34,465 nt of DNA. Origin: an uncultured bacterium (GTDB taxonomy: Bacteria > Verrucomicrobiota > Kiritimatiellia > CAIKKV01 > CAIJXV01). Positions 7,362 through 21,037 of this stretch are shown here, piece by piece (the first letter of the stretch is position 1; the number at the start of each line of letters is the position of its first letter). The notes under the pieces were generated by a model. The model saw nothing but the letters and a program-made list of their open reading frames with translations. It was not told the DNA's origin and made no database searches. The stretch spans positions 1 to 34,465 of the forward strand of contig CAIJXV010000057.1 of NCBI GenBank assembly GCA_903824675.1. The letters are read 5' to 3'. The translations under genes were made by a program, and so were the position numbers.

Positions 7362-7940
7362 ATGCAGGATTCCGAAGTATTGGCCGTTTTCCATAAAACC
7401 GAGGCCTTGTTGGAGGGCCATTTTGAACTCCGGTCCGGTTTGCACAGCGACCGGTTTTTCCAATGCGCCATGGTCCTCCGCTATCCGCGTCAGGCGGAAC
7501 GGTTGAGCATTGCGCTGGTGGAAGGAATCCGGCGGACGTTGGGTGCTGAGGTGCAGTTTGATGGTGTGATCGCGCCCGCCATGGGGGGCTTATTTGTGGG
7601 ACACGAAGTGGCCAAGGCGCTGGACGTCAAATCGATTTTTGCTGAAAAGCAGGATGGCAAGCTGGTTTTGCGCCGGGGATTCATCATCCGGCCCGGTGAA
7701 CGGTACCTGGTGGCCGAGGATGTGATTACCCGTGGGGGACGCGTCCAGGAAACGATCGACATTGTCCGGGCGTTGGGGGGCGAAGTGCCGGCGGTGGGGG
7801 TATTGGTCGATCGCAGCGATGGGAAGGCCAAATTTGAATGCCCGGTGATCAGCCTGTTGAAATTGGCGCCGGTGACCTATGACCCGGCCCACTGTCCCCT
7901 GTGTAAGCAGGGAATTCCGATGGTGCATCCCGGTTCCTGA
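7362..7940 (+). CDS. pyrE: orotate phosphoribosyltransferase
   Basis: A 192-residue enzyme that joins orotate to PRPP to give orotidine 5'-phosphate, the fifth step of pyrimidine synthesis, in the cytoplasm. The orotate-side motif FELRSGLHSDRFFQ is at residues 21-34. The PRPP-binding loop YLVAEDVITRGGRVQE, with the acidic pair Glu119-Asp120, is at 115-130. It ends in CPLCKQGIPMVHPGS, a tail found in the OPRT branch of several deep-rooting bacteria. The ATG at 7362 is chosen over an in-frame GTG at 7329 because aaggga lies upstream and the protein then matches family length. It heads a tightly packed four-gene run with membrane proteins, an unusual setting for a pyr gene; no other pyrimidine gene is nearby. 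Confidence 0.93.
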   Translation: MQDSEVLAVFHKTEALLEGHFELRSGLHSDRFFQCAMVLRYPRQAERLSIALVEGIRRTLGAEVQFDGVIAPAMGGLFVGHEVAKALDVKSIFAEKQDGKLVLRRGFIIRPGERYLVAEDVITRGGRVQETIDIVRALGGEVPAVGVLVDRSDGKAKFECPVISLLKLAPVTYDPAHCPLCKQGIPMVHPGS

Positions 7941-7953
7941 AAGGACATTGTCC

Positions 7954-9510
7954 ATGCGCGGATCCCTCCGGACGGGTCTTTGGATTCTGGCGGCGGTGAC
8001 CGCCATGGGGTTGGCTGCGGCAAATCTCTGGTTGGGCGAATTAAACCAGGATGAAGGCTGGTATTTGTATGCGGCCGGCAGGGTTGCGCAGGGCGAGATG
8101 CCGTTCATCGATTTTGCTTTTACCCAAGGTCCGGTTTTTCCGCTGTTCTATGCGTTGGGTCATCCACTAGTGGAGATTTGGGGGGTGGCCGGGGGTCGAT
8201 TTTTCACCGCGGTATTGGGGCTTTGCACGGCTTTGGTGGCGGCGGGTTGTGTTCGACGCCTGGTTCGGCCGGAAGCGTCTTCCGTGGCCATGTTGTCAGT
8301 TTTCAGTCTGATCACCCTTAACACCTATCACAGTTATTTTACGACGGTGGTTAAAACCTATGCCTTGGGCGGGCTTTGGCTGGCCCTGGCTTTTTGGTTG
8401 TTAACCTTTCGAGAGGGGCGGCGCGGATTATGGGCGGCAGCCGGGGCCGGGGTGGCGTTCAGTCTGGCGGCCGGGACCCGGATTTCGGCGGTCGTCTTTT
8501 TACCCTTGGGACTGATCTGGCTGGTGGTCAACCGGGCTTCGCGTCCGGGGGCCTGGCTGGCGTTTGGCATAGCGTCCGGACTGGCCTGCGGGTCTATTTT
8601 CCTGCCATTTCTCTGGGCTAATCCGGAAGCGGTTTGGTTTGGGTTATGGGACTATCACACCGCCCGGGCCGTCGGGGGAAATGCCTTCACCTGGTGGATT
8701 TACCGGGGGGCTTTTTTATCGCGAGTGGCCCAGGGATACCTGGTCCTTCTGGCCTTATGGATCTGGGTATTGGCGGTTGGACGAACCCGGGCGACCGGAT
8801 GGACGGAACCCGCGGCTGAACGGTGGGGTTTGCCGGTGCTCTTATGGGCCGGAGTATTGACTCTCACGGCTGTGCATGGGTTGACGCCGGTTCCCTATGA
8901 CGATTACCAGGCGGTTCTGGCTCCGGTGTTGGCCGTGGTGCTTACGGTCGCCGCCTGTCGCAGGATCGAAACCGAAACCGGACTCCAGCGATTGGCGGTT
9001 ACCGTGGTGTTGGTATCCATCCTGGTTGCGGGCGCTTCACCGATCAACCAGGAATGGTTCAGCGGCGGCCGGGATCGGATCTGGTGGAAGATCAAGGAGC
9101 GAACACCCCTGCAGGGTTTGCGGATCGCCGCCTCAGCGATTTTACCCCGTGCGGGAGCGGATGAACTGCTGCTGACTCAGGATACCTATCTGGCGGTGGA
9201 AACCGGATTGACGGTGCCGCGGGGCATGGAACTCGGACCTTTTTGTTATTATCCCGACTGGTCGGATGAACGGGCCCGGCGCTGTCATGTTTTAAATCGG
9301 AGCGGAATGGAAAACCTGTTGCGGACGACATCCGCCAGCGTGGCTGCGTTCAGTGGGTATGGCCTGGCCATCCGGTCCCCCGAGATTCTGCCCCTGGCGG
9401 ATGAGGAGCAGACCCGGTTACGCGCCTTATTGCAGGAGCGCTTCCGGCCCGTCTGGAGATTGGCTGATTTTGGACAGGCTTCGACTGAATTGACGATTTA
9501 TGAACACTGA
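7954..9510 (+). CDS. GT-C-type membrane glycosyltransferase
   Basis: A 518-residue polytopic membrane protein with some ten or more hydrophobic helices. After the first helix (residues 8-27) comes the first extracytoplasmic loop, with NQDEGWYLYAAG at 31-42, whose Asp33-Glu34 is the typical acidic catalytic pair of GT39/GT83/PMT-2-like enzymes. These transfer sugars from a polyprenyl-phosphate donor outside the inner membrane. A GPVFPLFYALG segment follows, as in that family. The C-terminal 130 residues form a soluble, probably periplasmic domain. The ATG at 7954, preceded by gaaagga, is preferred over a longer frame overlapping pyrE. Acceptor and donor are unknown; lipid, glycan or protein could be the target. 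Confidence 0.75.
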   Translation: MRGSLRTGLWILAAVTAMGLAAANLWLGELNQDEGWYLYAAGRVAQGEMPFIDFAFTQGPVFPLFYALGHPLVEIWGVAGGRFFTAVLGLCTALVAAGCVRRLVRPEASSVAMLSVFSLITLNTYHSYFTTVVKTYALGGLWLALAFWLLTFREGRRGLWAAAGAGVAFSLAAGTRISAVVFLPLGLIWLVVNRASRPGAWLAFGIASGLACGSIFLPFLWANPEAVWFGLWDYHTARAVGGNAFTWWIYRGAFLSRVAQGYLVLLALWIWVLAVGRTRATGWTEPAAERWGLPVLLWAGVLTLTAVHGLTPVPYDDYQAVLAPVLAVVLTVAACRRIETETGLQRLAVTVVLVSILVAGASPINQEWFSGGRDRIWWKIKERTPLQGLRIAASAILPRAGADELLLTQDTYLAVETGLTVPRGMELGPFCYYPDWSDERARRCHVLNRSGMENLLRTTSASVAAFSGYGLAIRSPEILPLADEEQTRLRALLQERFRPVWRLADFGQASTELTIYEH

Positions 9511-10309
9511 GGACAAGGGCGGGCGATGGGCGGCTGTGATTCTGATCCTCTGTCTGGTCGGGATCGGGGGCTGGATGATTCTGGCCCAACGCAGCAGTCG
9601 ACCTTGGGCGCCTTTGCGTCATACCGCAGCCGACTACGAGGGATTCAACCTGGCGATGGGAGAATGGGTATGGCGGGTGGTTGCCGTCGGGAATGATGAT
9701 CCCACGGCACCCAATCTGGTTGCCCGGGTGGGCACGTCCCAGGACGGTGCGGCGCCGAAGGTTTTGGTTCGCCTGGTTCACGGGTACAACATGCCGATGT
9801 GTATGAGGATCAAGGGGTATCGGGTTGAACTGGTACGAGACGAACGGAATACGGCCGGGGAACAGATTTGGCGTTTGATTTCAGAATTGAATGAGTCGAA
9901 TATCTGGATCACCCGCATGATACGGGCGGATGATTTGGTGGATACCGGGAGCGATATTTGCAATCTGGCATTTCCGCGGGTGGGTATTCCGGACGATCCG
10001 CACTGGGCGCCCAAAGGGTTGACTTGGGAGGCGGTACGACATCCTTGGACAAATCTGCGGCTGATGTTGCGGTCCCGCTGGAATGGATCCCGGACCGACT
10101 GGCGGACCTTCTTCAAATTCCGCCAACCGGCGTGGGTCAGCGATGAAGAATTGACCGTGGTATCAACCAGTATGAAGCCCGTTGCGCCCGACGAGGAAGA
10201 GCGAGAGATTGTGCGGATCCGTTCGGCCCAAAATGAATTTTTAGAGGCGCTCCGAATTTTTCAGCGGGCAAAGCGGCCCGACGATGAGGGAAAAAGGGTG
10301 GCGCCGTGA
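9500..10309 (+). CDS. membrane-anchored protein, weakly EpsI-like
   Basis: A 269-residue protein with one N-terminal anchor (residues 11-28, WAAVILILCLVGIGGWMIL) and a large domain presumably outside the membrane. The layout of a short anchor, then FNLAMGEWVWRVVAVGNDDP, then a V-x-V-x-L-V-x-G-Y strand leading to a Cys-containing M-C-M-x-I-K-G-Y-R-V segment recalls the EpsI/exosortase-associated domain (DUF3485). In that family a conserved P-x-x-C-x-x-x-x-G-W/Y segment occupies this place. The similarity is by eye and partial; the C-terminal 130 residues, rich in Trp and Arg, match nothing I know. Its start overlaps the upstream GT-C gene by 11 bases, and its end overlaps the rhomboid-like gene by 4. 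No exosortase or PEP-CTERM protein is in the window. Confidence 0.55.
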   Translation: MNTEDKGGRWAAVILILCLVGIGGWMILAQRSSRPWAPLRHTAADYEGFNLAMGEWVWRVVAVGNDDPTAPNLVARVGTSQDGAAPKVLVRLVHGYNMPMCMRIKGYRVELVRDERNTAGEQIWRLISELNESNIWITRMIRADDLVDTGSDICNLAFPRVGIPDDPHWAPKGLTWEAVRHPWTNLRLMLRSRWNGSRTDWRTFFKFRQPAWVSDEELTVVSTSMKPVAPDEEEREIVRIRSAQNEFLEALRIFQRAKRPDDEGKRVAP

Positions 10310-11148
10310 GTCGATGGAATCGGGTGGAACGGGCCTTGGAGGCATGGGCCTTTCCGCATTTGACCCTGTTACTGATTGCCGGGCAACTACTGGTTTACTT
10401 GTTGGAGGCGGCGCATCTGCCGGCGATTCGCGCAATCGAACTGGTTCCCGCACGCGTTTTGGATGGCGGCGAAGTCTGGCGGCTGGTCACCTTCCTGATG
10501 ACTCCGCCCCAATGTAATCCTTTTTTTGCATTTTTTGGTTGGTACTTGTTTTTCATCATGGGGAACGCCTTGAATGCGCATTGGGGCGCGCTTCGGTACA
10601 ATCTCTTCATCCTATTGGGCTGGTTGCTGACGGCGGGGATGGCGTTCGCAGTTCCGCATCAGAGTGCGCCGAACCTGTTTATCGGCGGATCTGTTTTTCT
10701 AGCCTTTGCCTGGATGTATCCAGATTTTGAAATTTATATCCTGTTTATTTTGCCGCTTAAAATAAAGTGGCTGGCCTTGCTGACCTGGGTCCTCTATGGC
10801 TGGACCCTGTTGTTCGGAACGATGCTGGAACGATTGATGATCCTCGCCTCGATGGGGAATGTCCTGATGTTTTTTGGGCGGGATATGTTTTGGGCGATAC
10901 GAAGGGGACAGCGGCGAGTGGGGGTGAAAGTGCGGTCAGCCGTCGCGGAAAAAGAGGACCCGAAGCATTGCTGTGTCGTGTGTGGACGGACCCTGCAAAG
11001 CCATCCTGAAATGGAATTCCGGTATTGCCGAACCTGCGTCCCGACGGCCTGTTATTGTCGGGAACATCTAAATCCTCATGTGCATCGATCGCTAGCACCG
11101 GCAAAGAAAAACCCTAAAATGCCGCCCCGGGATGGCGGATCCGGCTAA
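10306..11148 (+). CDS. rhomboid-like membrane protein with Cys/His C-terminal tail
   Basis: A 280-residue protein with about six membrane helices in residues 18-195 arranged as in rhomboid/derlin-like proteins: an amphipathic start, GGEVWRLVTFLMTP at 54-67 (the W-R motif before helix 1-2), and a helix with NLFIGGSVFLAF. There Ser129 in G-G-S-V sits where rhomboid proteases have G-x-S-G. The His expected in the last helix is missing (ILASMGNVLMFF at 179-190), so proteolysis is unlikely. The soluble tail has CVVC (223-226), CRTC (241-244), then Cys249, Cys251, His254, His258 and His260, enough for one or two zinc sites. The GTG start overlaps the upstream gene by 4 bases. It is last in the pyrE operon. 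A chaperone or scaffold role in the membrane is inference. Confidence 0.7.
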   Translation: MSRWNRVERALEAWAFPHLTLLLIAGQLLVYLLEAAHLPAIRAIELVPARVLDGGEVWRLVTFLMTPPQCNPFFAFFGWYLFFIMGNALNAHWGALRYNLFILLGWLLTAGMAFAVPHQSAPNLFIGGSVFLAFAWMYPDFEIYILFILPLKIKWLALLTWVLYGWTLLFGTMLERLMILASMGNVLMFFGRDMFWAIRRGQRRVGVKVRSAVAEKEDPKHCCVVCGRTLQSHPEMEFRYCRTCVPTACYCREHLNPHVHRSLAPAKKNPKMPPRDGGSG

Positions 11149-11771: not shown

Positions 11772-11819
11772 GTCCCATTGTTATTCCTGCGTTCCAAATC
11801 GTCCACAAGGTCGGCCTTC

Positions 11820-13574
11820 ATGTATGTTTTAGGCTTTAATTTTGGGCACAATGCCACGGCTTGTTTACTGAAAGACGGCGCCATTGTGGCCTGTTTGAGT
11901 GAGGAACGGCTATCGGGCGTTAAAAATCATTCCGGGTTTCCTTTCCGCGCGGTCGAGTGGATGTTCAAAAGGGAAGGCATTTCGGCCCAAGACATTGATT
12001 TGGTGGTTTTCCCGGGAGCGGTCGGGCCGATTGCTGTGGCGGGGGATGCCGGACGCGGTTTGACGGCAGGCGCACGATTATTTAATTGGCTTTATGGGAA
12101 TATCGGGAGTGCTTTTTTGCCGCTACCAGGCGGGAATGCCCTCTATCGGGGACTGTACGACGGAGTTTATTGGCCCTTAAAGAAAAAATTTCAACGCCCC
12201 TACATCGAAGATTTCGATCGCTATGGATATCGCCCGAAATGGATGGGGCCCGATCATCATTTGATGCATGCCTACTCGGCCCTCGGCTCCGTGGCGCCCC
12301 GGGGCGCGGATGGATGGCCGGCGGAGTGCCTGGTCCTGACGTGTGATGGCGAAGGCGATTTGATGTCGGCCACGGTGGGAGTTTGGCGAAACCGGCGATA
12401 TGAACGGTTGGCGGTCAGTTCCAGTCATGATTCGATCGGGTTGCTCTATAGCGCGGTGACCGCCTACATGGGGATGAAACCTCTGGAGCACGAATATAAA
12501 ATCATGGGGTTGGCGCCGTATGTCAGCGAGGAATGGACTGAAAAAGGCGCGCGGTTGTATCGTGATTTTTTAAGAGTAGAAGGGTTGCAGTTCAAAGGAC
12601 GCGTGCCCAGCCGGTGTTATCTGGCCCAGCTCGATCAAACGTTGCACCACGTCCGGTTTGATACGATTGCGGGCGGACTTCAACGCGTAACCGAGCAATG
12701 GTTGCTGGAGTGGGTTCGGAATGCCTGTGCCGCGACCGGATTGCGGACCGTGGTGGCGGCCGGGGGCGTCATGATGAATGTCAAGGCCAACGGGGAAATC
12801 GCCCGGCTTCCGATGGTCGACTATCTGGCCGTTTGTCCCAGCGCGGCGGATGAATCCGTGGCGATCGGGTGTGCGTATTATGGCTATTCGCAACTTAAGC
12901 CGGACCAGCCATTTCAAATTTTGGACTCGATTTATCAAGGTCTGGAGTGTGGCCGTGCCGAAGCCGACGAAGTGTTGCAGAAAGCGAAGAGCAGTGGCTA
13001 TCGGGTTCAGGACCTCGAAGGGCGGGAGGCCGAGGTGGTGGCGGACCTTCTCACAGCCGGAAAAATTGTAGGGCGCTGTGTGGGCCGTTGTGAATTTGGG
13101 GCCCGGGCGCTGGGGAACCGAACGATCCTGGCCCGTCCGGACCGGCCCGATCTGGTTCGCACCTTGAATGAGCAGATCAAAAATCGTGATTTTTGGATGC
13201 CCTTTGCGGGATCGATTTTGCAAAAGAGTGCGGATGAATATCTGGAAGGCACCGCGAAAAGTTATGGCGCGCACATGATGATCGCCTATCCGACCCGGGC
13301 AACCCATCGCTCCAAATTATTGGCGGCTGTTCACCCGTATGACTATACCATGCGACCCCAGGTCATCGGCGCGGGGCAAAATCCCGCGTATGAGGCCATT
13401 CTGGAGGCCTGCGCCCAAAGAATGGGAACACCCGCGGTTTTAAACACCTCCTTAAATCTTCACGGTAAACCCATGGCCGGCGGAGCTGAAGCGGCCTTTG
13501 AGACCTTCCGGGATTCCGGGCTTCAACATATTGTGATCGGGCCGTATTGGTTGTCCAAGGAAGCCCCCGCCTGA
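11820..13574 (+). CDS. carbamoyltransferase (NodU/CmcH family)
   Basis: A 584-residue enzyme that transfers carbamoyl from carbamoyl phosphate, via carbamoyl-AMP, to a hydroxyl of a sugar or natural product. The N-terminal Kae1-like part begins FNFGHNATACLLKDG and has LSEERLSGVKNHSGFP. The metal-binding histidines are in DHHLMHAYSA (about residues 142-151), and DGEGDLMSATVGVW is the ASKHA-type phosphate segment. The C-terminal YrdC-like half has GRCEFGARALGNRTILA, FWMPFAGSIL and TPAVLNTSLNLHGKPM. Length is normal for the family. The ATG at 11820 is chosen because homologues start at this MYVLGFNFGHN; the ribosome site is aaggtcgg. The next gene starts within its stop codon (TGATG), so this enzyme probably carbamoylates a residue of the glycan built by the genes downstream. 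Confidence 0.93.
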   Translation: MYVLGFNFGHNATACLLKDGAIVACLSEERLSGVKNHSGFPFRAVEWMFKREGISAQDIDLVVFPGAVGPIAVAGDAGRGLTAGARLFNWLYGNIGSAFLPLPGGNALYRGLYDGVYWPLKKKFQRPYIEDFDRYGYRPKWMGPDHHLMHAYSALGSVAPRGADGWPAECLVLTCDGEGDLMSATVGVWRNRRYERLAVSSSHDSIGLLYSAVTAYMGMKPLEHEYKIMGLAPYVSEEWTEKGARLYRDFLRVEGLQFKGRVPSRCYLAQLDQTLHHVRFDTIAGGLQRVTEQWLLEWVRNACAATGLRTVVAAGGVMMNVKANGEIARLPMVDYLAVCPSAADESVAIGCAYYGYSQLKPDQPFQILDSIYQGLECGRAEADEVLQKAKSSGYRVQDLEGREAEVVADLLTAGKIVGRCVGRCEFGARALGNRTILARPDRPDLVRTLNEQIKNRDFWMPFAGSILQKSADEYLEGTAKSYGAHMMIAYPTRATHRSKLLAAVHPYDYTMRPQVIGAGQNPAYEAILEACAQRMGTPAVLNTSLNLHGKPMAGGAEAAFETFRDSGLQHIVIGPYWLSKEAPA

Positions 13575-14734
13575 TGAGTACGCCGTCTGTTCTGGTTTTA
13601 TCCAATTGTTTTGCGCCGAATGTGGGGGGGGTTGAAACCCACTTGACGGATCTAACCACGGCCCTGGCCCAACGGGGTTGGCAGGTGAAAGTTTTGGCTT
13701 TTTATCCGCATACCACCCGGGTCGCCTGGAAACGGTATGAAGAACAGGCCGGGGGAGGCATTCAGATTTGGCGGCTTTGGTGGTTTGGTCATAATTGGTT
13801 TCATGTTCTAGAAAAATACCCACCCCTTCAGTTCCTCTATTTAGTTCCCCGTCTTTTCGTGGGGACACTGGTTTGGCTGATCCAACGCCACCGATCAATC
13901 ACGGTTATTCATGCGCATGGGCTGGCGGCTGGATTTTGCGCGCGTATCCTCGGACGCTGGTTCAACAAGCGCATCGTGTTGAGTTCCCATGCGGTTTACA
14001 ATTTCCAGACCGGCAGTGGATTGTCCCGGATGGTGCGTTGGATTTTATCCGGCATGGATGCCACCTTGACTTTATCGGAACAGTCGCGTGAAGAACTGAT
14101 CCGGATCGGCCTGGCCCCGGAGCGAGTGAAGACCTACCAACACTGGATTGATTTCGAAACGTTTTCGCCGGGGGACCGGGTGACTGCCCGGACCCGCTTG
14201 GGAGTCCGCGGATCTGACCCGGTCTGCCTTTTTGTCGGGCGACTGATCGCTCCCAAAGGGGTTCGGTTATTCCTGGAGTTGGCGCGCGACCCTCGGTTTC
14301 AAACGGCCCAATTTTGGGTGGCAGGGGTCGGCCCCTTGGAGAATGAAGTTCAGGCGGAAGCCGCGTCCAATCCCAAAGTGCGGTTTTTGGGAAATATCAA
14401 TAATGCTGACCTGCCCGATTATTACCGGGCGGCAGATATTTTGTGTGTGCCTTCACAATATCAGGAAGGTTTCGGGCGGGTGATCCTGGAGGCGATGGCC
14501 TGTGGGACACCGGTACTGGCTTCGGATTGCCCGGGGATACGGGAAGCCTTGGCGGGGGAGGGCGGGTGGCTGGTTCCCGCAACCCGGGAGGGTTTTGCCG
14601 AGCAACTACGGGAATTGTTCGCGCGACCGGAAGATCTGGCGGGGCGCCGCAGGGCCTGTCGGCGATTGACCGAGGAACGATATTCGATCCAAAATGTTGA
14701 GGTCATCGAAAAGGCTCTGAAAGGGGACGCATAG
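13574..14734 (+). CDS. GT4 family glycosyltransferase
   Basis: A 386-residue GT-B-fold retaining glycosyltransferase that uses a nucleotide sugar in the cytoplasm. The N-terminal domain opens with the Gly-rich NCFAPNVGGVETHLTDL (residues 10-26). The C-terminal domain starts at VCLFVGRLIAPKG and has the E-x7-E donor-binding motif in QEGFGRVILEAMACGTPVLA, as well as FLGNINNADLPDYYRAADI. No membrane helix is predicted, although residues 80-100 are hydrophobic and may dock at the membrane. The ATG overlaps the stop of the carbamoyltransferase gene (TGATG), so the two genes are co-translated. The sugar transferred cannot be read from the sequence. Confidence 0.92.
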   Translation: MSTPSVLVLSNCFAPNVGGVETHLTDLTTALAQRGWQVKVLAFYPHTTRVAWKRYEEQAGGGIQIWRLWWFGHNWFHVLEKYPPLQFLYLVPRLFVGTLVWLIQRHRSITVIHAHGLAAGFCARILGRWFNKRIVLSSHAVYNFQTGSGLSRMVRWILSGMDATLTLSEQSREELIRIGLAPERVKTYQHWIDFETFSPGDRVTARTRLGVRGSDPVCLFVGRLIAPKGVRLFLELARDPRFQTAQFWVAGVGPLENEVQAEAASNPKVRFLGNINNADLPDYYRAADILCVPSQYQEGFGRVILEAMACGTPVLASDCPGIREALAGEGGWLVPATREGFAEQLRELFARPEDLAGRRRACRRLTEERYSIQNVEVIEKALKGDA

Positions 14735-14851
14735 GGCATGGGGCGAGTGCTTCAGTCAGAACGATTTCTCGCCCGAGCAGGGATGCGGCGCGGCGTAATC
14801 AGCATATTTTTGCGTGTATCAGCAGTGAAAATACGATAAAATCAAAAAGCC

Positions 14852-15919
14852 ATGACAGCCCCCGCAGAACCCTTCAAAATCAGCATCGTCATTCCGAACT
14901 GGAATGGGCGGAAGCTTTTGGAGCAATTCATGCCGTCGGTGGTGGGGCAGAATTATCCCTCGTTCGAAGTGGTCATTTTGGACAATGCGTCGAGCGATGA
15001 GAGCGTTAAATTCCTGGAAGAACAGTATCCGCAGGTCCGAATCGTTCGGAATGACCGGAACGATGGAACCGCCGAAGGCAGTAATGTCGGGGCTCGCGCG
15101 GCACGCGGAGAGTATCTGTTTTTCATCAGTAACGACATGTGGCTTGAGCCGAACGTACTGACTTTGATGGTGCGGCATCTGGAGACGGATCCCCAGGTCG
15201 GGATTTGCACCTTGAAAATGCGCCGGATAACAGCGGATGGACAACGCCTGATGATGCTCGACAGCGTGGGCGGTATCATCGATGTATTTGGGTTTGGCTA
15301 TCCGCGGGGTATTAACGAAGAAGATCACGGGCAGTGGGATACGCCGGCGGAAATCGGGTTTTCATTTGGCGGCGCACTCATGATTCGGCGAGCTTTGTAT
15401 GAAAAGCTGGGCGGATATGATCCGGCTTTTTTCACCCTGACCGACGATATTGATTTGAGTTGGCGGGTGCGACTTCTGGGTTACAAGGTGATGGCGGAAC
15501 CCGGAGCGGTTTTATATCACCGGGTCTCGGCGACATTAAATACACCGGCCTTTAAACGAGCCTACCGACGATTTTTATCCGAACGCAACAACACGCGCAT
15601 GTTGTTGAAGAATTACCAATGGATGAATTTGTTGTGGGTTTTTCCCGGACACTTGCTGTTATTGCTGGCCGAAGGATTATTTTTCCTGGCGGCCGGGCAG
15701 TGGGCCTTGGCGGGGGCCGGTCCCCGGGCGATGATGTGGAACCTTCGGATGGGGCGGGACACTCTTCGTAAACGACGCGAGATTCAAGGGCTGAGGACCG
15801 TTGGCGATGGCGTCCTATTAAAACTGCGATGGCGGCATATCGGAAAACTTTGGATGCTATGGGAAATCTGGAAACGACGGAAGCATCCTGATGTAAAAAG
15901 CTTTTTTGGAAAGGGTTAA
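14852..15919 (+). CDS. GT2 family glycosyltransferase (WbbL-like)
   Basis: A 355-residue inverting glycosyltransferase with GT-A fold. Motifs in order: ISIVIPNWNG (about 10-19), VVILDNASSDES (about 40-51), the donor/metal site region GEYLFFISNDMWLEP (N-D in place of D-x-D, as is usual in the rhamnosyltransferase-like branch), GALMIRRALYEKLGGYDPAFF, and the ED-like TDDIDLSWRVRLLGY catalytic segment. One hydrophobic stretch near 270-300 (LLWVFPGHLLLLLAEGLFFL) with a basic tail suggests membrane attachment. It lies 117 bases after the GT4 gene, a gap with a gggcgag/ctcgccc inverted repeat at about 14742-14776. The dehydrogenase start lies 8 bases past its stop, so those two form a transcription unit. 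Confidence 0.92.
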   Translation: MTAPAEPFKISIVIPNWNGRKLLEQFMPSVVGQNYPSFEVVILDNASSDESVKFLEEQYPQVRIVRNDRNDGTAEGSNVGARAARGEYLFFISNDMWLEPNVLTLMVRHLETDPQVGICTLKMRRITADGQRLMMLDSVGGIIDVFGFGYPRGINEEDHGQWDTPAEIGFSFGGALMIRRALYEKLGGYDPAFFTLTDDIDLSWRVRLLGYKVMAEPGAVLYHRVSATLNTPAFKRAYRRFLSERNNTRMLLKNYQWMNLLWVFPGHLLLLLAEGLFFLAAGQWALAGAGPRAMMWNLRMGRDTLRKRREIQGLRTVGDGVLLKLRWRHIGKLWMLWEIWKRRKHPDVKSFFGKG

Positions 15920-15926
15920 GGTGGCC

Positions 15927-17252
15927 ATGAAGACGACCAAGGTTTCCATTATCGGCATGGGTAAGCTGGGAACGTCGATGGCGGTGGCCATGGCCAAGCG
16001 GGGTTGCCAGGTCATCGGTGTGGACATCAATCCCGAAGCCATCCGTAAAATCAATGCGGGCGAATCCCCGGTGGAAGAGACCGGACTCCAGGATTTGCTG
16101 ACCCAATTTGGCCGGAAAATCACCGCGACGGCGGATGTGGCCGAGGCGGTGCTTAAAAGCGACGTGACCTTTGTTGTCGTGGCCACTCCCAGTCAGGCCG
16201 ATGGGGCTTTTTCCAATCATCAGGTATTGCCGGCCGTGGATCGGATTGGGCGCGCCTTACGTCACAAAAAAGGCTATCCCATTGTCGTCATCACCTGCAC
16301 GGTCATGCCGGGAACGACCGACACGATCATTCGTTCGCTTCTTGAAAAACGATCAGGTAAAAAATGCGGCCGTGGTTTCGGTCTGGTTTATAATCCGGAG
16401 TTCATTGCGCTGGGCAGCGTGATCCGGGATTTTCTCAATCCCGATTTCGTGCTCATGGGTACCCGCGAGAGAAAAACCCAAAAATGGATGGAAGCTTTTT
16501 ACGGACGGATTTGTGAAAATAAGGCCCCGGTGCAAACCTTGACGCCGCTCGAGGCGGAAATCGGCAAGATCTCGCTGAATTGCTTTTGCACCATGAAAAT
16601 CACGTTTGCCAATATGATTGCCGAGGTGGCCGAAGCGCTTCCGGGCGTTGATGCCGCGCAAATTAATCGGGCCATCGGATTGGACACCCGAATTGGCCAA
16701 CGGTATCTGGCTCCCGGATTGGGTTTTGGCGGACCCTGTTTTCCACGAGATAACGTGGCGTTTAGAGTATTTGCGGAGCGGCTGAAAATCACGGCGTTTC
16801 TTCCTGAAGCCGTTCACACTTCGAATCGTCGACAGGCGGCACGGGTGGTGAACCGGGTTCGGGCGATTTTGCCGAAGGGCGGAAGAGTGGCCGTATTGGG
16901 TTTGTCCTATAAACCGTTTACCCCGGTCATTGAGGAATCCCAAGCCTTGCAGGTGGCCCGACAGCTGGCTGAAACGCAAGGATTTCGGGTGGCGGTTTAT
17001 GATCCCCAAGCCTTGGATGCGGCGCGCAAAGTATTACCGAAAGCCGTTGCTTTTGCCCCCTCTTCCGCAGCCTGCCTGGCGGGGGCCGACTTGGTGATCC
17101 TGGCTACACCTTGGCCTGAATTTAAGACGCTTAGCCCGACCTTGCTGGAGAAAACGATGCGGCATCCGGTGATGATCGATTGTTGGCGATGCTGGAGTCC
17201 GAAAATGGGGCGGGGCAAAGTTCGCTATTGGGCCACTGGCTTGGGGAAATGA
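15927..17252 (+). CDS. UDP-glucose/UDP-hexose 6-dehydrogenase family enzyme
   Basis: A 441-residue NAD-dependent enzyme that oxidises C6 of a nucleotide sugar in two steps to a uronic acid. The Rossmann motif IGMGKLGTSMAVAMAKRG is at residues 9-26, followed by GVDINPEAI. The middle part has ATPSQADG, TVMPGTTD and VYNPEFIALGSVIRDF. Lys214 in EIGKISLN and the nucleophile Cys271 in GLGFGGPCFPRDN are present. The C-terminal domain has VLGLSYKPFTPVIEES. The ATG at 15927 follows aaggtgg and matches family N-termini; an in-frame TTG at 15906 would overlap the GT2 gene. Whether the substrate is UDP-glucose, UDP-GlcNAc/ManNAc or GDP-mannose cannot be settled by eye. It supplies an acidic sugar to the surface glycan. 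Confidence 0.9.
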   Translation: MKTTKVSIIGMGKLGTSMAVAMAKRGCQVIGVDINPEAIRKINAGESPVEETGLQDLLTQFGRKITATADVAEAVLKSDVTFVVVATPSQADGAFSNHQVLPAVDRIGRALRHKKGYPIVVITCTVMPGTTDTIIRSLLEKRSGKKCGRGFGLVYNPEFIALGSVIRDFLNPDFVLMGTRERKTQKWMEAFYGRICENKAPVQTLTPLEAEIGKISLNCFCTMKITFANMIAEVAEALPGVDAAQINRAIGLDTRIGQRYLAPGLGFGGPCFPRDNVAFRVFAERLKITAFLPEAVHTSNRRQAARVVNRVRAILPKGGRVAVLGLSYKPFTPVIEESQALQVARQLAETQGFRVAVYDPQALDAARKVLPKAVAFAPSSAACLAGADLVILATPWPEFKTLSPTLLEKTMRHPVMIDCWRCWSPKMGRGKVRYWATGLGK

Positions 17253-17296
17253 GGGGCGATAGGTGGATCGTCCTTTAGAGCGAGGACATCGGGCGT

Positions 17297-17353
17297 GGCT
17301 CAAGTGAGCCGGTAGCCGCGGTCGTCGAGGATCTGGGCGGCCAACGGCCGCCC
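17297..17353 (+). promoter_or_regulatory. two perfect hairpins before the GT4 gene
   Basis: The 117-base gap holds two inverted repeats: ggctca-ag-tgagcc at 17297-17310, and an 8-base stem gggcggcc-aac-ggccgccc at 17335-17353. The second ends 16 bases before the ATG at 17370 and almost abuts the ribosome site ggtaaggat. No T-run follows either, so they are not ordinary terminators. They could slow or gate translation, stop RNA decay, or be short repeat insertions. Confidence 0.4.
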
Positions 17354-17369
17354 CCACAACGGTAAGGAT

Positions 17370-18575
17370 ATGAACGAAAAGTCCACGATACCGATTGAAC
17401 ACTTGAATGTTCTGATCTCCGGGTTGGTGTTAACCAGCCGAACCGAGACCATTGAGGATTATCTGCGTACCCGGGTTGCCCGGTTGGGGGTCGTGGGGTT
17501 GGCTGGTCCCTTTCAAAAAGGAGCCCAAGGCCGCTATACGGAATATACCCACGGGCAAAAAAAAGAAGAGATTCAATTGTCGGGGCAGCATGTGCCCAAC
17601 GCGAATTCGGTGGCGGGATCTTGCCAATTGATCCTGGCGTTTGGATGGTATGTGTGGAATATTTTCCGGCAGGGATGGCGACACCGGCCTTGGGATGTCT
17701 TTATTGGCATTTCCTGTTTTTCAGCCTTAGTCGGTGTGGTGTTGAAAAAAATGGGAGCCACCCGCCAATTAATTTATTATAGCATCGACTACTATCCCAC
17801 CCCAACTAAATGGGGGTTTGCCCGGATGATGGTGTGGGCTTTTCGCTGGGCGGATCGAATCTGCGCACGGAATTCGGATCGGGTTTGGCACATCACCAAC
17901 CGGATTATTGAGGCCCGGGCTACGCTGGGTGGATTGAAGGCCGATCGATATCTCCATGTTGAAATGCCCCTGTCCTATCGGCAAAGTCTGATGCGACGAT
18001 ATCCGGTTGGATCCATGGAGCGCTGGACCATCGGTTTTGTCGGGTCATTAACCGAATCACAAGGGGTTCAGCTCTTAATCGCTGCGTTGCCGGAATTGGC
18101 CCGGCGGTTTCCTGAGCTTAAAGTGCGGATTATCGGGCGGGGTCCCTATGCGCGTGAGCTTGAGGCGCTGGTTGAGAAGTCCGGACAGAGTAACCGGGTC
18201 ATTTTTCATGGATTCATCAGGGATGAAGAAGAGGTGTTGGATATTATCGCCCATTGTGCGGTTGCGGTGGCGCCGTGGACCCAGACCTCGGACAATAATA
18301 TTCTCTATGCCGATCCAGGCAAGCCGAAGTTATATATGTGTTTGGGGGTGCCGTGTGTGATCACGCGGGGGCCGGATATTGCAACGATGGTGGAAGGGCA
18401 TGGGGCTGGTCGGGCCATTGACTATACCGTGAGCGAATTGGTAACCGCGCTGGATTCATTGATGTCGGATGATGGCATTTTGCAACAGGCTCGGGATCAG
18501 GCCTACGAATTGGGCCATGAGTTTGTGTCCGAAAAAATCATTCGAGATGCGCTCGCAAAAACATTTCCACGCTAA
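17370..18575 (+). CDS. GT4-like glycosyltransferase (GT-B fold)
   Basis: A 401-residue glycosyltransferase group 1 protein. The N-terminal half is divergent, with VLISGLVLTSRTETIEDYL, a hydrophobic stretch near 95-130 that may contact the membrane, and LIYYSIDYYP. The C-terminal half is recognisable by WTIGFVGSLTESQGVQLLI, LKVRIIGRGPYARELEAL, VIFHGFIRDEEEVLDIIAHCAVAVAPW and a donor-site region KPKLYMCLGVPCVITRGPDI. There the first Glu of the usual E-x7-E is missing; Lys-Leu-Tyr replaces it, a variant known in GT4-like enzymes that select on K-x-x-x-Y. The ATG has a good ribosome site (ggtaaggat). It ends 45 bases before a convergent methyltransferase gene. Confidence 0.85.
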   Translation: MNEKSTIPIEHLNVLISGLVLTSRTETIEDYLRTRVARLGVVGLAGPFQKGAQGRYTEYTHGQKKEEIQLSGQHVPNANSVAGSCQLILAFGWYVWNIFRQGWRHRPWDVFIGISCFSALVGVVLKKMGATRQLIYYSIDYYPTPTKWGFARMMVWAFRWADRICARNSDRVWHITNRIIEARATLGGLKADRYLHVEMPLSYRQSLMRRYPVGSMERWTIGFVGSLTESQGVQLLIAALPELARRFPELKVRIIGRGPYARELEALVEKSGQSNRVIFHGFIRDEEEVLDIIAHCAVAVAPWTQTSDNNILYADPGKPKLYMCLGVPCVITRGPDIATMVEGHGAGRAIDYTVSELVTALDSLMSDDGILQQARDQAYELGHEFVSEKIIRDALAKTFPR

Positions 18576-18620
18576 GGAAAGAATCCCGACCGACCTGATC
18601 CAATTTTCACAGACGGCGGA

Positions 18621-19262
18621 TTAGCATTTCTGCGCGGCGACGAGTTGACCTTGAGGGATGAAGCCCAGGTAGGTCAGATTCTTTTGATAAGCAACCGGCT
18701 TGAATTTCTTTCTGATTAAAAGATCCGCCAGATTCCAGCGGGAGAAATAACGAATATGCGGAGTGGTCGGGTAAAAAAACCGATGAAACGCAACCATCAA
18801 AATCAGCATCATTTTTAAACGGGTGAATTCACTGGTCGCGATCAAAAAATAACCCCCGGGCTTCAGCGTGCGATGAATTTCTTCCAGAGTGGTTTCAAGG
18901 TCGAGAATGTGTTCGAGGACATCCACCGAAATGATGGTGTCAAAATAATTATCCGGGAATGGAATTTTTGAGTCAGACAGGAGTTTAAAGTCGATTTCGG
19001 GACTGGTTTGACGCGCCAGTTGAATGGCTTTTTCGGAGACATCAACGCCATGGATGGAAGACCCATACGGTTTCAATAAATGGGTAAAATCTCCGCGCCC
19101 ACAACCGTAATCCAAGATAACGCCTTGGGCATAAGGTTTAAAAAAATTCCAATGATACTGGAAGTTGTCTTGGGACCAATTTGCCGGAGGATGATCAAAG
19201 GGATTGATCTTGATATGGGCATCCGACCAATACCGTTCATAAAACTGTTTATCTTGTCCCAT
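18621..19262 (-). CDS. class I SAM-dependent methyltransferase
   Basis: A 213-residue soluble methyltransferase of the Methyltransf_11 type. Motif I is VILDYGCGRGDFTHLL (about residues 48-63), motif II is IHGVDVSEKAI, and the post-II strand is YFDTIISVDVLEHI, followed by LKPGGYFLIATSEF. The N-terminal QFYERYWSD is a signature often seen in methyltransferases of polysaccharide loci. A clear ribosome site (gaggg) lies 5 bases before the ATG. It is transcribed alone, divergent from the epimerase at 19359. It probably O-methylates a nucleotide sugar or a glycan residue; substrate unknown. Confidence 0.9.
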   Translation of the reverse strand: MGQDKQFYERYWSDAHIKINPFDHPPANWSQDNFQYHWNFFKPYAQGVILDYGCGRGDFTHLLKPYGSSIHGVDVSEKAIQLARQTSPEIDFKLLSDSKIPFPDNYFDTIISVDVLEHILDLETTLEEIHRTLKPGGYFLIATSEFTRLKMMLILMVAFHRFFYPTTPHIRYFSRWNLADLLIRKKFKPVAYQKNLTYLGFIPQGQLVAAQKC

Positions 19263-19288
19263 AATACCCTCGTTAGAGACGCTTTAGC

Positions 19289-19317
19289 TTGATCTTTCCG
19301 ACAAGATCTCAAATAAT
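19289..19317 (+). promoter_or_regulatory. probable sigma70-type promoter for SDR/methyltransferase operon
   Basis: TTGATC (19289-19294) and AATAAT (19312-19317, five of six consensus bases) are 17 bases apart in the 96-base divergent gap, giving a leader of about 35 bases before the ATG at 19359, which is preceded by gggag. Confidence 0.42.
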
Positions 19318-19358
19318 ACTCAAAAGGGCACAAAATACAACCATCACCTGGGAGTGGT

Positions 19359-20288
19359 ATGAAAATCTTGGTCACCGGCGGTGCGGGATATGTTGGATCA
19401 GTGTTGGTGCCGATGTTGCTGGCTCGGAATTATCAGGTCCGGGTGCTGGATAATCTGATGTATGGGGGGCGGGGTCTGTTGCCTTGTTTTGCCAGTCGGA
19501 ATCTGGAATTCATGAAAGGCGATGTTCGGGACGAAGCCGCCTATGCCCGGGCGCTGGAAGGTGCGGAGGTGATTGTCAATCTGGCGGCGATCGTGGGCTA
19601 TCCAGCCTGTAAAAAGGATGCGCGTCAAGCCGAAGAGATCAATGTCGGGGGAGTGCGAAACCTGGTCCGCCTTCGTAAAAAAGACCAGTTGATTCTTCAA
19701 GCCTCGACAGGGAGTAATTATGGGGCGGTTTTAGGCGATCTCTGCACGGAGGAAACTCCGCTTAGCCCCTTAACCGTCTACGGTCGGACTAAAACCGAAG
19801 CTGAGCAGGTATTGCGGAGTGCGGGCAATGTGGTTATGTACCGGTTTGCGACGGCATTTGGGGTTTCGAATCGGATGCGGCTTGATCTGCTGATTAACGA
19901 TTTTGTGCATCAGGCCGTCAAAATTCGCAATCTGGTGGTTTATGAAAAAACCTTTAAGCGCACCTTTTTGAATGTCCGCGATCTGGCCGCCAGTTTCCTG
20001 TTCGCGATTGATCATGCCGATACCATGCGCGATCAAACTTACAATGTCGGGCATGAGAGTATGAATGCCAGCAAGGAAGAGATTGCCCAGTTGATCCGCA
20101 AGAAATTTGATTTCTATCTGCATTTTGCCGAAGTGGGGGAAGATGAGGATAAGCGGAATTATGAGGTTTCCTACGAGAAGATTCGTAAAACCGGCTATCA
20201 ACCGACGGTTTCATTGGACGAGGGGATCGACGAATTGATCCGCTCCATGGCGGTGGTGGAAATTCGCAACGAATTTAATAATGTATGA
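19359..20288 (+). CDS. NAD-dependent sugar-nucleotide epimerase/dehydratase (extended SDR)
   Basis: A 309-residue extended short-chain dehydrogenase that acts on a nucleotide sugar. The NAD motif GGAGYVGS is at residues 7-14, followed by DNLMYGG (31-37), GDVRDE, a substrate-side STGSNYG, and the catalytic Tyr141-x3-Lys145 in VYGRTK. Characteristic later blocks are MRLDLLINDFV, FKRTFLNVRDLA and KRNYEVSYEKI. It belongs to the same subgroup as the gene at 24338-25273, with which it shares these blocks. The exact reaction (4-epimerase, 4,6-dehydratase, decarboxylase or reductase) is not fixed by sequence alone. Its stop overlaps the next start by 4 bases (ATGA), tying it to the methyltransferase that follows. 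Confidence 0.88.
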   Translation: MKILVTGGAGYVGSVLVPMLLARNYQVRVLDNLMYGGRGLLPCFASRNLEFMKGDVRDEAAYARALEGAEVIVNLAAIVGYPACKKDARQAEEINVGGVRNLVRLRKKDQLILQASTGSNYGAVLGDLCTEETPLSPLTVYGRTKTEAEQVLRSAGNVVMYRFATAFGVSNRMRLDLLINDFVHQAVKIRNLVVYEKTFKRTFLNVRDLAASFLFAIDHADTMRDQTYNVGHESMNASKEEIAQLIRKKFDFYLHFAEVGEDEDKRNYEVSYEKIRKTGYQPTVSLDEGIDELIRSMAVVEIRNEFNNV

Positions 20289-21037
20289 GCTCAAGCCTTC
20301 GACACAGCCAGTTTTATTCGGATTACTTTTCACGAAACAAGGTTGTCGGCCAATGGACTCCCACCGCTAAAGAAAAGATCATTATAGACTATTTATGCCG
20401 GATCAAAACCGAATGGGGTACCGTTCTGGATATCGGATGCATGAATTCGCCCTTCATGTATGAGTTCCGGAAACGAGCGGTTATTCGAGACTATTATGGA
20501 ATGGATCTATTGCCGGAGGAAGAAGGGCAGGCGCTGTTAAAAGAGGGCCATTATCGGCGGGTTAATATCGACGATGGAATTCCCGATTGCGGCGTCAAAT
20601 TTGAAGTGATTGTTTGTAGTGAAGTCATTGAGCATTTGTTTTCACCGGATAATGTATTCCGGTTTGCTCAAGAGAATTTGGCGCCCGGTGGCCTGTTGGT
20701 TATTACGACGCCGAATTTGGGCGTATGGTATAACCGGTTCCTTTTATTTGCCGGATATCAGCCCTGTTCGACAGAAGTTTCCGACCAATATAATGATCTG
20801 GGAAAGATTTGGACGGATTGCCTTCATGTGGGGGGGCACTTGCGTGTTTTTACCTGTCGCGCACTGCTCGCCATGGCCGATCGATATAATTTCAGAGTCA
20901 GGAAAATTGGCGCTTTCACCGATCCTACGAATTTACTAGGGCACATTACCCTGTGGATTGGGAATATTCGGCCATCCCTCGGGAAAAACCTGATATGCTT
21001 TTTTGAATTAAAAGATAGAATTAGCAAAGATCCTTAA
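20285..21037 (+). CDS. class I SAM-dependent methyltransferase
   Basis: A 250-residue methyltransferase. SAM motif I is TVLDIGCMNSPFM (about residues 46-58), a slightly unusual G-C-M-N-S in place of G-C-G-x-G. It is followed by YYGMDLLPEEEG, FEVIVCSEVIEHLFSPD and LAPGGLLVITTPN, the latter two typical of Methyltransf_23-type sugar and ubiquinone methyltransferases. It is translationally coupled to the SDR upstream through ATGA. The pairing suggests that it methylates the sugar that the SDR makes. It is not closely similar to the methyltransferase at 18621-19262. A strong terminator lies about 250 bases further on. Confidence 0.88.
   Translation: MSSSLRHSQFYSDYFSRNKVVGQWTPTAKEKIIIDYLCRIKTEWGTVLDIGCMNSPFMYEFRKRAVIRDYYGMDLLPEEEGQALLKEGHYRRVNIDDGIPDCGVKFEVIVCSEVIEHLFSPDNVFRFAQENLAPGGLLVITTPNLGVWYNRFLLFAGYQPCSTEVSDQYNDLGKIWTDCLHVGGHLRVFTCRALLAMADRYNFRVRKIGAFTDPTNLLGHITLWIGNIRPSLGKNLICFFELKDRISKDP

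Follow-up and report, generated by a model that had tools for sequence, protein, structure and literature searches.

Gene cluster in the window

The window, a stretch of 34,465 nucleotides from an uncultured bacterium of the class Kiritimatiellia, carries four genes between positions 7362 and 11148 (Table 1). The gene coordinates confirm the description in the earlier note of four tightly packed genes on the same strand. The start of the P0003 gene lies inside the end of the gene for the GT-C-like protein, with an overlap of 11 bases, and the start of the P0004 gene lies inside the end of the P0003 gene, with an overlap of 4 bases. Given these overlaps, the GT-C, P0003 and rhomboid-like genes are probably co-transcribed in the window. 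The genome to which the window belongs (G000) is a 4.24 Mb bin that is 96% complete.

Table 1. Genes of the four-gene stretch in the window
Gene or product	Positions	Strand	Features
pyrE (P0001), orotate phosphoribosyltransferase	7362..7940	+	TIGR01367 match; first gene of the cluster
GT-C-like multi-spanning membrane protein (P0002)	about 7954..9510	+	11 hydrophobic segments; LNxDEGWYLY motif
P0003, single-pass protein with a periplasmic domain	9500..10309	+	GYNMxxCM motif; co-occurrence with the exosortase-TPR fusion
Rhomboid-like protein (P0004) with a C-terminal Cys/His-rich domain	10306..11148	+	family profile match to 2nr9

The pyrE product scores 187.9 bits with the equivalog model TIGR01367, above the cut-off of 150.25, and pyrE has no other match in G000. 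P0002, P0003 and P0004 have no Pfam or NCBIfam matches. Downstream of the four genes, on the same strand, the window carries a glycan cluster (11817-21037) with genes for a NodU-type carbamoyltransferase, GT4 and GT2 glycosyltransferases, a UDP-sugar dehydrogenase, an epimerase and a methyltransferase.

A nine-gene operon in related genomes

The neighbourhoods of P0003 relatives contain a recurrent set of genes. They encode a beta-barrel protein that matches EpsL weakly, an exosortase-TPR protein, a Wza-type exporter, a BY-kinase of the Wzc/Wzz kind, a sugar transferase of the EpsB type and a Wzy_C protein. The operon has the order pyrE, GT-C, beta-barrel (OMP), exosortase/TPR fusion, Wza, Wzc/BY-kinase, EpsB, Wzy and P0003 family. 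All nine genes are found in this order and in one uninterrupted run at locus L214, where they were mapped with profiles and the open reading frames were read directly. Eight of the nine are present at L226, Wzy alone being missing. The first four genes, from pyrE to the exosortase/TPR fusion, are contiguous in six genomes (L214, L226, L231, L232, L146 and L152). At L145 and L158 pyrE accompanies the OMP and exosortase/TPR genes, the GT-C gene having been lost or replaced. The adjacency of pyrE and GT-C recurs across many families; it is seen without the remaining genes at L068, L070, L071, L086 and L090, and G006 shows it at the end of a contig.

The spread of the nine-gene order across genomes suggests that the order is ancestral. 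pyrE, the GT-C-like protein and P0003 are probably parts of an exosortase-exopolysaccharide system, and the three genes are likely to represent the ends of a conserved and apparently undescribed gene cluster for the making of exopolysaccharide and the sorting of surface proteins. The earlier note took the pairing with pyrE as a possible sign of a unit, conserved and so far undescribed, that modifies the surface or sorts proteins. This is supported by the recurring pyrE-GT-C adjacency, the contiguity in six genomes and the co-occurrence of P0003 with the fusion, with the correction that the unit is much larger than the one in the note and excludes the rhomboid. A search of mainly openly available literature found no paper that links an exosortase with orotate phosphoribosyltransferase, and the fusion may have been described before.

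Split arrangement in the genome of the window

The six middle genes of the operon lie on a separate contig in G000 (G000:C25; locus L138), where they retain the order of the operon. The P0003-family gene is absent from L138, and the genome has no P0003, GT-C or pyrE match apart from those in the window. Comparison of the tetranucleotide profile of L138 with that of the window gives a value of 0.937, against at most 0.884 for the other genomes tested. The window is likely to hold both outer ends of what was an ancestral operon, with the middle six genes relocated to another contig of the genome and the rhomboid-like gene a later neighbour. On the simplest view, the departure of the middle block brought the two ends together, and therefore pyrE, the GT-C gene and the "EpsI-like" gene now stand side by side. 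Because the two halves lie on different contigs, linkage gives no support for joint function in G000 itself, which counts against the system there. The Wza-type gene at L138:5830-7126 occupies two overlapping frames, owing to a frameshift or an assembly error.

Co-occurrence of the P0003 family and the fusion

Members of the P0003 family are found in 36 of the 346 genomes of the class, spanning 18 families, and the exosortase-TPR fusion in 47 of the 346; all 36 lie within the 47. The hypergeometric probability of this nesting is 1.7e-39, a value that ignores shared ancestry and overstates independence. The neighbourhood search proposed for the EpsI-like and rhomboid-like pair had a divided outcome: the rhomboid-like gene is unlinked, and P0003 occurs with the fusion in 36 of 36 genomes. 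Among 58 related genomes, 15 have P0003 relatives. The named relatives found with P0003 carry the labels PVC group or uncultured bacteria. Across 388 evenly sampled genomes of the phylum, the P0003 family and the fusion are confined to this class.

The P0003 homologue is situated within 2 kb of an EpsB, Wzy, Wzc or OMP gene, on the same strand, in 27 of the 32 genomes examined; it is unlinked in G004, G008, G015 and G019. It belongs to the same operon as the exosortase at L214, L226, L149, L058, L158 and other loci; such a tie to an exosortase, by fusion or by proximity of the genes, is also a mark of EpsI.

The exosortase-TPR fusion

The fusion protein is about 1340 residues long and consists of an exosortase followed by TPR repeats. 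The exosortase part scores 80 bits (L058) and 76.7 bits (G000) with Exosortase_EpsH (PF09721; cut-off 25.7). The catalytic motifs PxxCSG, LNxxRI and HDTxG, which supply the Cys, Arg and His, are present in nearly all of the 31 copies of the fusion. In a genome with the full operon (L214:4182-8201) the Arg motif reads LNILCI, with Cys in place of Arg, and at L150 the catalytic Cys is replaced by Ser; these two copies are possibly inactive. Among the scores shown, the fusion stays below the cut-offs of the named Xrt subfamilies, the best being XrtD at 45.9 bits against 400 in G000 and 56.1 against 400 at L058.

Hydropathy points to some eight helices followed by a basic loop, and a further helix precedes the TPR part. 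Because of this helix layout and the basic loop, the TPR domain would be periplasmic according to the positive-inside rule. In all 16 of the 16 members the TPR part is PrsT-like, with scores far below the PrsT cut-off.

A second type of fusion is encoded outside the exopolysaccharide locus, at L141, L144 and L155, where it adjoins proteins whose C-termini consist of a PEP motif, a hydrophobic (TM) helix and a basic tail. There is one such PEP-CTERM-like protein at each of these loci, the one at L141 occupying positions 12554-13255. Pfam misses these neighbours or scores them below the cut-off. The PEP-CTERM model PF07589 under-detects, visible PEP-TM-basic tails being unmatched or falling below its cut-off. 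Each second-type fusion and its PEP-CTERM-like neighbour look like a dedicated pair of enzyme and substrate.

G000 has one PEP-CTERM protein over the cut-off and two exosortases. The second exosortase (L139:9673-11397) is of the ordinary kind and carries, as a fusion, an EpsI domain of the canonical type (DUF3485). Because this enzyme is present, the PEP-CTERM protein of G000 need not belong to the fusion system. The EpsI of the class carries a Cys-rich, zinc-ribbon-like insertion of the form CxxxC...CPxCGG.

The P0003 family

P0003 has one N-terminal transmembrane helix, followed by a periplasmic domain of mixed alpha/beta structure (AF2 model, pLDDT 72.5). The motif GYNMxxCM is almost universal in the family. 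The canonical EpsI domains of the same class carry HRPQxCLPAQG, a motif absent from P0003. The EpsI models (PF11984/TIGR02914) match neither P0003 nor any of 12 relatives. Profile comparisons of P0003 with canonical EpsI of the class, made with hhalign using 13 against 17 and 33 against 36 sequences, gave probabilities of 0.2-0.3%, like those of decoy families. With the AF2 model, Foldseek returned only weak Bet v 1-like matches (E 0.065), and VIA-align returned PsbP/Mog1-like chains, of which the best (PsbP) had a Z of 7.6, within the tool's stated noise range. The label "EpsI-like" draws on the layout and a His/Cys-containing motif only. P0003 is accordingly classed as a family of exosortase partners that sits in the place of EpsI and not as a demonstrated EpsI.

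The GT-C-like protein

P0002 has the layout of a GT-C protein, with an invariant D35/E36 after the first of its hydrophobic segments, and its N-terminal motif is invariant in the family. No GT-C family model in Pfam and no solved structure in the PDB matched any of 10 members. The family is found in 42 of 58 relatives and is thus wider than the fusion system; it is present in many genomes that lack the fusion and missing from several that have it. The tie between the GT-C-like gene and the operon is one of position only, not of co-occurrence. The gene lies beside pyrE, the OMP-exosortase genes or both, and in other families beside a GT2 gene and a flippase-like gene, the latter labelled by inspection of a sequence that has no Pfam match. 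This neighbourhood of GT2 and flippase-like genes fits a lipid-linked sugar donor. The protein is a probable polyprenyl-phosphate-sugar-dependent glycosyltransferase.

In another family (L104:6856-10884) the GT-C gene is followed by a gene for Lnt, the apolipoprotein N-acyltransferase, fused to TPR repeats. This protein shares with the exosortase fusion the plan of a membrane enzyme with a TPR tail.

The rhomboid-like protein

The family profile of P0004 matches 2nr9, a GlpG homologue, with E=5.5e-4 over residues up to TM4, which indicates a rhomboid fold. Among seven members, the position of the catalytic Ser varies (S/T/G) and no His is conserved in TM6. The AF2 model of P0004 (pLDDT 52.7) is too poor to use. 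The family occurs in 8 of 58 genomes, shows no association with the fusion (P=0.23), and its homologues lie away from the cluster in all seven relatives. The rhomboid was rejected as a member of the system on linkage, co-occurrence and catalytic residues, and the earlier placing of it within the unit has to be given up. P0004 is a putative pseudo-rhomboid with a C-terminal Cys/His-rich domain, present in the transcription unit by chance as a local addition.

Alternative interpretations

In the view of the earlier note, the GT-C-like protein, P0003 and the rhomboid form a membrane system of their own; the overlaps of 11 and 4 bases speak for it. The three genes are never together in relatives, the rhomboid homologues being unlinked in all seven, and the presence of the rhomboid is independent of the fusion, so that a separate three-protein system is very improbable. 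Judged by the refuting condition set in the note, membrane genes scattered in relatives, the three do not make up a unit; the GT-C and P0003 genes, together with pyrE, belong together as ends of a larger one, and the rhomboid drops out of it. Rhombosortases are known sorting enzymes (PMC3237569), and the rhomboid-like sequence of P0004 and its overlap with P0003 could be taken to mean that a processing enzyme of this kind was added to the sorting system of G000. This hardly seems credible: P0004 has no NCBIfam match at E up to 1, the rhombosortase model being TIGR03902 according to the same paper, its catalytic Ser is not invariant, and the AHxxGxxxG of TM6 is absent. A better case can be made for P0003 as a highly diverged true homologue of EpsI (DUF3485). 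Both have one transmembrane helix followed by a small periplasmic domain, both are encoded beside an exosortase/exopolysaccharide locus in the same position, and the His/Cys-containing motif of P0003 follows a strand, with a realigned hhalign pairing that sets Cys to Cys. However, the hhalign comparison is no better than with decoys, the EpsI motif is missing, and canonical EpsI genes coexist with P0003 in many of the same genomes. True homology to EpsI is therefore doubtful.

The part played by pyrE is evenly balanced between two readings. The gene may be a housekeeping gene that keeps its place and has a good promoter, behind which the glycan and sorting genes settled with no metabolic coupling; the cluster would still be real, with pyrE outside its functional members. 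In keeping with this, pyrE occurs almost everywhere and, in many fusion-bearing genomes (G004, G008, G010, G013), away from the cluster, and the P0003 and fusion genes occur together without pyrE at L149 and L143. Against it, the order of pyrE and GT-C is kept over many families, and pyrE still adjoins the OMP-exosortase/TPR genes at the two loci where GT-C has been lost or replaced.

Proposed mechanism and significance

In the proposed scheme, EpsB would use a UDP-sugar to begin a lipid-linked glycan, with UMP set free. The GT-C-like protein, acting at the periplasmic face with a polyprenyl-phosphate donor, would add a sugar, and the Wzy-like protein would polymerise or transfer the glycan, which Wzc, Wza and the beta-barrel protein would export. 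The exosortase domain, with its Cys, Arg and His, would cut the PEP-CTERM-type tails of secreted proteins while the periplasmic TPR domain of the fusion would keep hold of the substrate, of the glycan machinery or of both at once. P0003, with its membrane anchor next to the exosortase, would be an accessory protein comparable to the EpsI of other exosortase systems. PyrE might feed UMP into the supply of UDP-sugars, or pyrE might be just the donor of a housekeeping promoter. The framework of the scheme comes from the observed gene order, co-occurrence and catalytic motifs, and from the PEP-CTERM protein seen in the same genome; the enzymatic steps and physical contacts, all of them, are those that the protein families would predict.

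The cluster bears on the job of EpsI and on the acceptor of exosortase substrates. An exosortase with a fixed set of glycan genes and a small partner never seen without it offers a compact system for the questions of partner and glycan acceptor. The cluster also brings to light three families without a matching Pfam or NCBIfam model, namely the P0003, GT-C-like and pseudo-rhomboid families, and it predicts a place for a nucleotide gene in an operon for surface assembly.

Comparison with known systems

The cluster resembles the PEP-CTERM/exosortase (EpsH/Xrt) systems and their exopolysaccharide loci (Haft 2006, PMC1569441) in having a Cys/Arg/His exosortase in a locus with Wza-, Wzc-, EpsB- and EpsL-like genes, and in the presence of PEP-CTERM proteins. 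It differs in that the exosortase is fused to a TPR domain of about 1000 residues and, in the members with scores shown, reaches no named Xrt cut-off. In addition, the locus has the P0003 family and no DUF3485 EpsI, and pyrE and an unassigned GT-C family lead the operon.

The rhomboid-like protein resembles rhomboid/GlpG and the rhombosortases (PMC3237569) in sequence over the first helices. In contrast to these, its Ser and His are not conserved, it has an extra C-terminal Cys/His-rich domain, and it is unlinked to the cluster.

P0003 is, like EpsI (TIGR02914/DUF3485 PF11984), a membrane-anchored periplasmic protein encoded with an exosortase/exopolysaccharide locus, but the two have no detectable homology and their motifs are different (GYNMxxCM and HRPQxCLPAQG).

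The TPR repeats at the C-terminal end of the fusion recall PrsT (TIGR02917), the TPR lipoprotein of XrtA systems. PrsT is a separate TPR protein according to PMC1569441, whereas the TPR repeats described here lie within the exosortase chain and score far below the PrsT cut-off. Tentatively, the cluster might represent a distinct exosortase class, in which the enzyme carries its own periplasmic TPR scaffold, the GYNMxxCM family does the job of EpsI, and an operon led by pyrE couples pyrimidine supply to a polysaccharide-linked protein coat.
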